Assembly (NCBI GenBank): GCA_038831005.1
Contig: JAWBKZ010000002.1
Coordinates: 62,001-126,000, forward strand
Direction: 5' to 3'
Length of the DNA: 64,000 nucleotides
DNA from: Ignisphaera sp.
GTDB taxonomy: Archaea > Thermoproteota > Thermoprotei_A > Sulfolobales > Ignisphaeraceae
Part shown: in pieces, positions 44,041-46,888 of the stretch
How positions within the stretch are numbered: position 1 is the first letter of the stretch
Layout of the letters: every line of letters begins with the position of its first letter
The notes under the pieces: generated by a model
Seen by the model: only the letters and a program-made list of their open reading frames with translations
Told to the model about the DNA's origin: nothing
Database searches by the model: none
Position numbers and translations under genes: made by a program

Positions 44041-44085
44041 TAAACTTTATATAGGTTTACTGCAGTATCTACCTAGGGTGTGTTT

Positions 44086-44313
44086 ATGAATTACGTTACA
44101 GTATCTGCTAAAATCCCCAAGAAATTGAAAGAGCTTCTAAGTAGATATGGTATAAAGCCTGGTCCTATTATTAGGAGAGCTCTTGAAGAAGAAGTTAAAA
44201 AACGAATGCTTGAAGAACTTGAGGAAGTATCTAGAGAGCTCTCTAAGGAGCTATCTCATGTATCAGATGAAGAAATTATTGAGCTGATAAGAGAGGATAG
44301 GGAAGGTAGATAG
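44086..44313 (+). CDS. vapB: VapB-type antitoxin
   Basis: A 75-residue protein from ATG 44086 (the frame begins at 44080). An N-terminal strand (YVTVSAKIPKKLKELL) of ribbon-helix-helix type is followed by a long charged helix (ALEEEVKKRMLEELEEV). This matches crenarchaeal VapB antitoxins, which bind their own promoter and the VapC toxin. Its stop is 2 bases before the vapC start. Confidence 0.85.
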   Translation: MNYVTVSAKIPKKLKELLSRYGIKPGPIIRRALEEEVKKRMLEELEEVSRELSKELSHVSDEEIIELIREDREGR

Positions 44314-44315
44314 TA

Positions 44316-44711
44316 TTGTATCTCTATGATGCAAATGCAATACTTAATCTCGTAAAGAGAGGTGAATTAAGGGTTCTCCTAGGTGGACATACCTTAGATC
44401 TTGCTATCTACGAGACTGCCAATGCTATTTGGAAAGAATACCATCTTCTTAAGAAGATAAGGATTGAGATAGTCTATAAATTAATTGAGCTACTCTCTAA
44501 GATCTTCAACATACTAGATCTACACACAATAAGAGGTTTCGAGAAAGATGTTATGGATATAGCTGTAAGAGAAGGGATAACAATCTATGATGCATCCTAC
44601 ATATATATCGCAATGAAAAACAATCTAACATTAGTAACCGACGACAGAAAACTCATGAATATCGCTAAAAAATACGTTAATATAGCAACAACTAGTGATA
44701 TCACTACATAG
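44316..44711 (+). CDS. vapC: VapC-type PIN-domain toxin
   Basis: A 131-residue PIN nuclease. Four acidic positions are present: YLYDANAIL (Asp, about 5), YETANAIWKE (Glu, about 33), IYDASYIYIA (Asp, about 95) and VTDDRKL (Asp, about 113). It begins at TTG 44316. VapC cuts tRNA or rRNA when not held by VapB. The pair follows a decayed HEPN gene, suggesting repeated toxin turnover at this locus. Confidence 0.88.
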   Translation: MYLYDANAILNLVKRGELRVLLGGHTLDLAIYETANAIWKEYHLLKKIRIEIVYKLIELLSKIFNILDLHTIRGFEKDVMDIAVREGITIYDASYIYIAMKNNLTLVTDDRKLMNIAKKYVNIATTSDITT

Positions 44712-45354
44712 ATTACAAGCCTATGTTCTAAAGTCCGTAAGTCTATGATAAAATACATCTACAATTATTCAAATATACATAGGTGTAGTAAATGGTAGAG
44801 AAAACATAATGATACTATAGAAAGGCTTGGAAGAGCCTCGAAAATAAAATACTAATACATCCTAAACATTGGGGAAACAGATGTTTACAAATTAAAGGTT
44901 TATTGAGAATTCAGCAAGGTACGCGAGAATTAAACTATTGGGAATACTTCTATGGATTCCGAGAATCGATTACCTAAAGATGTATAGATGGCCAAGGGTT
45001 TGGATAGTTCGGATTCGATGAGCTAGTGAGCTGTTGACGAAGGGTAAAGCTCTATGAACCTCTCTTTGCCGATGATTCTAGGAAACACGGCAACTCAATC
45101 TACATTAACCAATATGAATAGATATGGATCCCGAAACATCCTATACATAGTTCTATAATATTGTTTGTGTAAAAGCTCGTCCTTTAACAGTATCTTTTAG
45201 TAGGTTGTTAACATAAGGCTTATGGTATTGTAGAGACGATTTTAAGTTACCTTTATTAGAAACTGTATTTTATTGTTTAGAGCTTCTTTTTGTTTTATTG
45301 AATATCTTGGCTTGGACTGAAACAATGATTTAGTGTCTGTCTAGAGAGGATATT
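44712..45354. other. Gap before the ATPase gene; no gene found
   Basis: All frames are closed by stops within about 40 codons. A single AGTTACCT half-site of the tandem palindrome lies at 45245-45252. The remainder could be decayed sequence but matches nothing recognisable. Confidence 0.4.
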
Positions 45355-45386
45355 AGTTACCTAGGTAACTAGTTACCTAGGTAACT
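45355..45386. repeat. Two tandem copies of a 16-bp perfect palindrome
   Basis: AGTTACCTAGGTAACT occurs twice without any gap (45355-45370 and 45371-45386) and ends 4 bases before the ATPase start codon. Each copy is a perfect palindrome, and so is the whole 32-base block. This is the expected form of an operator for a dimeric regulator, or a recognition site for a recombinase or for the ATPase itself. Confidence 0.85.
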
Positions 45387-45390
45387 GCTT

Positions 45391-46344
45391 ATGTTATTTG
45401 ATCTTAGACCTAAAGAGAGAAGAGATGAGCTTTTTGATCGTGAGGAAGAGTTAGAGATATTGCATAGGCTTGTAGGTAGTGAATGGATTGTTATCTTAGG
45501 TAGGAGGATGATGGGGAAAACGTCTTTGCTTAAGACATTCCTTCACGAAGTTGATGGTATCTACATCAATCTTTCTGGTGTTAGAAGTGTTAAAGGGTTG
45601 GTTGAAGAGCTTATGAAGTATGCTAGAAAACTTGGTGTAGAGGTTAGTGTAGGTCCTTTAACTATTTCTTGGTCTAGGTTAGCTGAAGATGTTTTCTCGA
45701 AGTTTGATGGAAAGGTGATAGGATTTGATGAAGCTCAAGATCTACCTGTGAACTATACTCTTAAACTTCTCAAGAAGGTGTGGGATACATATGATATAAG
45801 GATTATCTTTACAGGCTCTATGGTAGGGCTTATAACTGGGTTACTAGAACCAACACCTCACAGCCCTTTATATGGAAGACAGCCTGCTAAAATAACGCTA
45901 AAGCCTTTTACACATGAGCAAAGCCTAGAATTTCTTTCTAAAGGATTCAGAGAATGTAAACTAGATGCACCATTAAATGAGCTAGAAGAAGCTATAGATC
46001 TACTTGGAGGATATCCAGGATGGCTAGCTTACTACGGAAATATGAGGTGTGTACGTAGATTAACACATAAAGAAGCATTAGAACAAGTATATCAAGAAGG
46101 AAAACAAATACTTCTAGAAGAACTCAAAAAATTTCTAGAGTCGCGTAAAATACCTGAGAAATACATAAAATTATTGAAGCTTTTGCCAGCTAGATGGAGT
46201 GAACTCAAGAACGCTATGAATATAAATAGCAAAGTGCTCAGCGACATGATCCAAAATCTGGAGAAAGCTATAATAATAGAGAAGAAAGGAGATACATATA
46301 CTATCCCAGACCCAATAATGAGAAACCTAATATTCGAGCTATAG
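45391..46344 (+). CDS. Archaeal STAND-like ATPase (PF01637 type)
   Basis: A 317-residue P-loop ATPase. The N-terminal FDREEELEILHRLV precedes Walker A GRRMMGKTSLLKT (about residue 37). Walker B is KVIGFDEAQDLP, then sensor FTGSMVG and GRQPAKITLKPFT. The C-terminus is a winged-helix region (YIKLLKLLPARWSELKNAM). This archaeal ATPase family is often linked to defence or mobile elements. The tandem palindrome directly before the ATG suggests autoregulation. Base composition is like its neighbours. Confidence 0.85.
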   Translation: MLFDLRPKERRDELFDREEELEILHRLVGSEWIVILGRRMMGKTSLLKTFLHEVDGIYINLSGVRSVKGLVEELMKYARKLGVEVSVGPLTISWSRLAEDVFSKFDGKVIGFDEAQDLPVNYTLKLLKKVWDTYDIRIIFTGSMVGLITGLLEPTPHSPLYGRQPAKITLKPFTHEQSLEFLSKGFRECKLDAPLNELEEAIDLLGGYPGWLAYYGNMRCVRRLTHKEALEQVYQEGKQILLEELKKFLESRKIPEKYIKLLKLLPARWSELKNAMNINSKVLSDMIQNLEKAIIIEKKGDTYTIPDPIMRNLIFEL

Positions 46345-46888
46345 GTGTACCTCAAGATCTAAGTCAAAACATTAAGAACATCACATATCTATGCAATCAC
46401 GCAAAACTTCTCTCCATCACAAAGAAACAGTACCTTCAAACATAATGAACTCCATAAAGCGATTGAGGTATGGTTTCGTGAGAAGACATAGTTGTTGGGG
46501 TTAGTGATTAGCTTAAACAGAATGTTATGAATATATCAGAATCGAATTCAAGTACTTCAGATCTATCTATAGATTGTTATAGTATTACGTGTATTAAACC
46601 TACAGTAAGTATTGTTGTAGGAGGATAGGGATCTGTGGAACGAAAACTACTGGGTTATAGTATCGATGGTTAAACCTAACAAAGGTAGAGTTTATTCATA
46701 GTTTAGCTAGTCGGTAAACTCTAGATAAACTCTAGAACCTATTCTTTGTGTAGAGCTTTGAGAGTGGATGAGCTACACGAGATTCATCATGTTACCTTTA
46801 TTCAGATGTCTATGACCCTTCACAAGATGTGAGCAATTCTTATAATTTCTTAACTATGGTATCGATGGTTTGGAGGTGTTCTTAAATA
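46345..46888. other. Gap without a supportable gene
   Basis: Stops close all frames. A near-direct repeat AAACTCTAGA is present twice around 46720-46740. No RNA gene or regulatory element could be assigned beyond that. Confidence 0.4.

Follow-up and report, generated by a model that had tools for sequence, protein, structure and literature searches.

STAND ATPases of the SSO1545 type (PF01637) occur widely among archaea and have multiplied in many genomes, and we found no established function for PF01637-type ATPases. Solved structures include 2FNA (SSO1545) and 2QEN (PABY2304 of Pyrococcus abyssi); among the papers that the search covered, none mentions an operator, DNA target or autoregulation for this family. 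Gene-regulating STAND ATPases are already known, such as IniR, whose DNA-binding domain is an extra C-terminal SdiA-like module (PMC5760070), as are archaeal AAA+/winged-helix regulators, such as the nucleotide-switched global transcription regulator Orc1-2 of Saccharolobus (PMC9738581), and one DNA-binding plant NLR, Rx1, which binds and bends DNA (PMC4599002).

The gene considered here lies in the window, the whole analyzed stretch of 64,000 nucleotides from Ignisphaera sp., and encodes a member of the SSO1545-type family with the same Walker A and B motifs, the GxP-like GYPGWL and the C-terminal winged helix. Two tandem palindromes stand directly before it. We consider it highly probable that these palindromes are a private operator of the gene that follows, bound by its own product and serving negative autoregulation by promoter occlusion tied to the nucleotide switch.

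The operator and the ATPase of the window

The features of the locus are as follows (positions within the window):

45349–45354, forward strand: TATA-like GATATT, abutting operator copy 1
45355–45370, no strand assigned: operator copy 1, AGTTAC-CTAG-GTAACT, a perfect dyad
45371–45386, no strand assigned: operator copy 2, same letters as copy 1, with the ATG 4 bp on
45391–46344, forward strand: STAND-type AAA+ ATPase, PF01637, 317 aa, apparently monocistronic
45499–45525, forward strand: Walker A, residues 37–45 (GRRMMGKTS)
45715–45732, forward strand: Walker B, residues 109–114, ending in D113 E114
46009–46026, forward strand: GYPGWL motif, residues 207–212
46153–46302, forward strand: C-terminal winged-helix domain, residues 255–304 (AlphaFold2 model)
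46225–46266, forward strand: recognition helix with its N-cap, residues 279–292, of which 279, 280, 281/282 and 285 covary with operator bases

The first-pass annotation had described a 16-mer doubled without a spacer 4 bases before an ATG, and this description is exact: positions 45355–45370 and 45371–45386 hold two exact copies of AGTTACCTAGGTAACT with a spacer of 0, which when joined form a single perfect palindrome of 32 bp (45355–45386), and GCTT (4 bp) separates the end of copy 2 from the ATG at 45391. The start codon had also been chosen correctly, as MLFD...PK is the conserved N-terminus of the family. Read from the outside inwards, the half-site of the window operator is AGTTAC. Shuffled versions of the window gave a mean of 0.42 matches to AGTTACCTAGGTAACT with up to three mismatches allowed, and no further copy, exact or with up to two mismatches, was found elsewhere across the 1.70-Mb genome. 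The single half-site AGTTACCT that had been pointed out at 45245–45252 is indeed present, but it carries no weight, since about three occurrences of this 8-mer per window are expected by chance and it is also found at two other, unrelated places.

The protein scores well above the curated cut-off of the PF01637 profile (62.6 against 33.2 bits), and G42 K43, D113 E114, G207 and G210 W211 L212 are invariant or nearly so among 232 genes; GYPGWL is what we take to be the GxP motif of STAND ATPases. The AlphaFold2 model (pLDDT 90.6) comprises an ATPase domain, a helical domain and a C-terminal winged helix, the last with modelled helices at residues 255–263, 269–276 and 280–292 and strands at 297–299 and 302–304, where helix 280–292 is the predicted recognition helix and residues 297–304 the wing. 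The closest solved structures by sequence and fold are 2QEN (fold search E 1.6e-24) and 2FNA (E 3.9e-21), after which come RuvB, plant NLR resistosomes, ORC and MalT, a likeness that is expected of a STAND ATPase. The window protein had no match in NCBIfam, the orc1/cdc6 model (TIGR02928) included; for this model a homologue reached 18.5 bits, far under the cut-off of 181.3. Among the PADLOC anti-phage defence models there was no strong full-length match for the ATPase, and the weak matches concerned the PDC-S27/S01 candidates (at most 44.7 bits). Directly after the wing, residues 303–311 (46297–46323) contain a nearly invariant Y...DP(I/V), placed roughly like the MHD motif of NLR winged-helix domains; a contact with the nucleotide is possible.

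The non-coding flanks of the gene are long (44712–45354, about 0.6 kb, and 46345–46888, about 0.5 kb); they have no Rfam matches and may be remnants of decayed genes. At 44080–44711, about 650 bp upstream of the operator, a small ORF is followed 2 bp on by a PIN-domain ORF (PF01850), a pair that is like a VapBC toxin–antitoxin.

Occurrence and placement of tandem operators in the family

About 100 genomes and 80 named contigs together yielded 277 distinct family genes, and upstream regions were scored (maximum 24) for a pair of tandem dyads that ends at the start codon, using a parser flexible in core length. Of 275 family genes, 61.5% scored at least 20 out of 24, whereas this threshold was passed by no sequence in 2,750 dinucleotide shuffles and by 2 members of a control set of 618 unrelated genes, from which duplicates of family genes were excluded; one of these two is the reverse-strand neighbour of a family operator. 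Scores under 17 were found for about a fifth of the family genes, partly owing to overlap with the start codon, other core lengths or wrongly chosen starts. A scan with fixed core length separated the genes less well, since many operators overlap the start codon or differ in core length. The window operator is one case of a family-wide element.

Tandem dyads of 16–19 bp each, ending at the start codon, were found in Sulfolobales in the wide sense, Brockarchaeota, Caldarchaeum and Nitrososphaeria, and the same arrangement also occurs in Bathyarchaeota, Methanodesulfokora, Thermococcus and two bacterial-labelled MAGs. The latter, labelled Deltaproteobacteria and Neomarinimicrobiota, carry family genes with ACTTAAGGGGG-like operators (L082 and L085), which may reflect transfer or misbinned contigs. 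No tandem dyads precede the longer, more distant PF01637 proteins L005 and L047. Within the subfamily of the window protein (317–325 aa), the 16-mer AGTTACCTAGGTAACT is kept nearly unchanged across phyla at a protein identity of 43–71%, so that the search for the palindrome before other copies of the gene, proposed in the first-pass annotation, found it before the close orthologues; other paralogues share the architecture with different letters, examples from other clades being ACTTCTAGGGGTAGAAGT, AGTATCAGGGGTGATACT and ACTTGGGGTACTCCAAGT. The family half-site reads A/G-C/G-T-N-N-N from the outside inwards. Its bases 4–6 agree in 88% of comparisons among the four arms of one gene and in 39% between genes. 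The repeat period is mostly 18–20 bp, and 16 bp in the clade of the window gene. With one exception, the coding strand carries a G-rich core in copy 2, whereas copy 1 has the reverse orientation in 22 genes, its core being C-rich instead of G-rich. A reading of the G-rich core as a Shine-Dalgarno sequence found no support, SD-like matches being nearly as frequent in copy 1 as in copy 2.

Averaging over 238 genes revealed a BRE-like A-rich stretch at −11 to −8 and a TTTATAA-like box at −6 to −1 from the first base of copy 1, which itself lies a median of 36 bp from the start codon. The TATA-like element of the window gene is weak, whereas the family-average element is strong. In archaea the transcript usually starts 22–25 bp from the TATA box, and transcription should therefore begin near the start of copy 2. 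Copy 1 would then separate the TATA box from the start site, and copy 2 would cover the start site together with the leader.

The operators are also private to their genes. A search of 211 genomes of the order for exact matches to the 14-mer core GTTACCTAGGTAAC gave 10 sites in 7 genomes, and all 10 precede this ATPase, one of them at the end of a contig that stops just past the operator. Across 13 Sulfolobaceae-like genomes, every match to ACTTCTRGGGGTAGAAGT with at most one mismatch precedes a family gene or the broken remnant of one; those of its two-mismatch matches that were inspected are scattered background. None of 109 same-genome pairs among the sampled family genes shares both half-site and unit length. 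As there are no close paralogues for comparison, we make no claim on operator avoidance among same-genome paralogues. The genes are solo, since a same-strand gene follows within 30 bp downstream in only 2 of 83 of them; no conserved neighbour or operon partner recurs widely, and no family member was found on a plasmid, phage or viral contig.

Three further family genes of the window genome differ from the window gene in half-sites or spacing: L006 (G000:C4:202773-203861), with the operator AGTTACACTAGTGTAACT, has the same outer arm and is 2 bp longer, L007 (G000:C7:43894-44919) has AGTTCTGACCCAGAATC/GATTCTGGGGTAGAATA, and L009 (G000:C4:147236-148306) has GCTTTCGGTACGGAAGC. The distribution of the family is patchy and its turnover high. 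Five genomes (G313, G473, G536, G537 and G538) hold 23–34 family matches each, many of them truncated or with internal stops, which points to fast gene birth and decay.

Covariation of operator bases with the recognition helix

For the comparison of proteins with operators, 232 proteins were aligned and the half-sites were taken from the DNA alone. By APC-corrected mutual information, residue 280 with base 2 ranked first of all tested pairs, 281 with base 5 second and 279 with base 4 third; by tree-aware joint changes, the top four of 2,429 pairs were 279 with base 4, 285 with base 7, 280 with base 2 and 282 with base 5. In the model, all of these residues cluster at the N-terminal end of recognition helix 280–292. 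With D280, half-site base 2 is C in 112 cases, G in 0 and A in 6, while with N, K or R280 it is G in 53, C in 0 and A or T in 2; since the family genes are related, such raw counts overstate independence, and the tree-aware figures are the fair ones. Eight of the 14 switches between C and G at base 2 share a tree branch with a switch between D and another residue at 280 (hypergeometric P about 7e-10, the best of 1,004 tests by more than four orders of magnitude), and none of 20,000 weighted permutations reached 8 shared branches, the maximum being 5. In a held-out set of 30 genes fetched afterwards, all 20 that were testable obey the rule linking residue 280 to base 2, and about half of these 20 are at most 60% identical to any gene used previously. 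The window protein has S280, which is ambiguous in this code (17 G, 15 C at base 2), so that the G of its operator rests on other positions.

We regard the covariation with the recognition helix as strongly indicating that each ATPase reads the operator of its own gene. Together with the arrangement conserved across the family, it bears out two proposals of the first-pass annotation, namely that the palindromes are an autoregulatory site and that the C-terminal winged helix of the ATPase could bind them; binding of the ATPase to its own operator is, as far as sequences can tell, strongly supported. The covariation shows co-evolution but does not tell repression from activation; on this evidence the site may also serve activation or be purely structural.

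Proposed mechanism and relation to known systems

The data are most simply explained by negative autoregulation, in which a dimer on each copy would occlude the promoter and the nucleotide state would govern release. The ATPase would sit on its operator as dimers, or as a higher oligomer spanning both copies, with one half-site contacted by the winged-helix recognition helix of each subunit. Since the two copies occupy the whole stretch from TATA box to start codon, protein bound there would obstruct TFB/RNA polymerase or the start site, and this negative autoregulation would cap the amount of an NLR-like, nucleotide-switched ATPase. A signal-driven change of nucleotide state may then release or strengthen operator binding. 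Repression is probably the outcome rather than activation; like physical binding, dimer stoichiometry, nucleotide-state control and any cellular role, it is inferred. Each family gene appears to bind, and probably to shut down, its own promoter only; since each gene copy has its own half-site and/or spacing, the copies within one genome would be addressed separately.

A replication-type site, the other option named in the first-pass annotation, is not favored. It seems quite improbable that these are iteron-like palindromes of a replication, partition or mobile-element site, served by an Orc1/Cdc6-like ATPase in replication or in the maintenance of an integrated element. The combination of AAA+ and winged helix does recall Orc1/Cdc6, initiator genes often adjoin their own sites, and the weak TIGR02928 match of a homologue, the presence of ORC among the distant fold matches and the patchy, rapidly turning-over distribution agree with such a role. 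However, the operators lie inside the core promoter, where in one gene after another they occupy precisely the interval from TATA to start codon, with two copies per gene and none elsewhere; some genomes have more than 20 family matches, so that tens of differently addressed copies per genome are possible, with no sampled same-genome pair sharing half-site and unit length, and neither plasmid, phage or viral-contig members nor conserved neighbours were found. We give very little credence to control at the RNA level, with the repeats forming 5′-leader hairpins that govern translation. The inverted repeats do adjoin the start codon and the coding-strand core of copy 2 is G-rich in nearly all genes, but covariation ties the operator bases to a DNA-recognition helix, the TATA box is immediately followed by copy 1, which should be mostly untranscribed, the flipping of copy 1 in 22 genes would be better tolerated by a duplex site than by a loop, and the near-equal frequency of SD-like matches in the two copies points the same way.

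That the site is bound by some other regulator and not by the ATPase is hardly credible: winged-helix regulators are abundant in archaea, but the top covarying residues are all within the recognition helix of the ATPase itself, no conserved neighbour gene encodes a regulator, and dozens of distinct operators would each require a further matching regulator. These three readings fit the data less well than autoregulation, whereas self-activation is possible. The latter, in which the ATPase, bound to its own site, switches on the gene or is anchored there, e.g., for triggered assembly of an oligomer on DNA, we nevertheless consider rather unlikely. Against it, archaeal operators located past the TATA box and across the start site are normally repressive. 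In its favor, STAND proteins oligomerise upon ATP binding, the fold of the window ATPase is close to that of plant resistosome subunits, and Saccharolobus Orc1-2 activates genes at high level (PMC9738581).

Several known systems resemble the family in part. Orc1/Cdc6 proteins, including Saccharolobus Orc1-2, are likewise AAA+ plus winged-helix DNA-binding proteins, but Orc1-2 acts globally, whereas the family of the window gene has a private tandem operator at the start codon of each paralogue and no further sites. MalT, AfsR, IniR and other STAND transcription factors likewise couple a STAND ATPase to gene regulation, and a MalT entry is among the distant fold matches of the window ATPase; their DNA-binding domains are extra modules, whereas in our family the predicted DNA-reading helix belongs to the small winged-helix domain that follows the ATPase. 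The operators of toxin–antitoxin systems and phage repressors are promoter-overlapping tandem inverted repeats, private to each system and diversified among paralogues. They are likewise tandem, private and autoregulatory, but belong to two-gene toxin–antitoxin units or to phage regulators, whereas here the ATPase gene stands alone. We found no earlier description of a gene-private, family-wide tandem operator read by a post-ATPase winged helix; the search covered openly readable papers, and the novelty is therefore provisional.

If confirmed, sequence-specific DNA binding at its own promoter would be the first concrete, testable activity for this family. A decodable recognition helix would make the target of each member predictable from sequence, and the family may provide natural orthogonal regulator/operator pairs from hyperthermophiles. 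Plant NLR resistosomes (NRC4, NRC3 and Roq1) share the ATPase, helical and winged-helix fold with the window protein (TM-score 0.66–0.69 over the query), but unlike the window family they have sensor and effector domains. To our knowledge, no sequence-specific self-operator is known for plant NLRs. The winged helix of the family holds the place in the fold of the regulatory winged helix of NLR/Apaf-1 proteins. We suggest tentatively, and with more doubt than conviction, that this is an NLR-like ATPase family, with tens of paralogues in some genomes, each with a self-addressed operator and a readable winged-helix protein–DNA code, in which sequence-specific DNA reading may represent an ancestral job of the NLR winged helix and the nucleotide state switches the stock of a stand-alone sensor, possibly an immune one. 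The private operator by itself would link NLR-like STAND ATPases to promoter reading through the very domain that acts as a conformational switch in their eukaryotic relatives.
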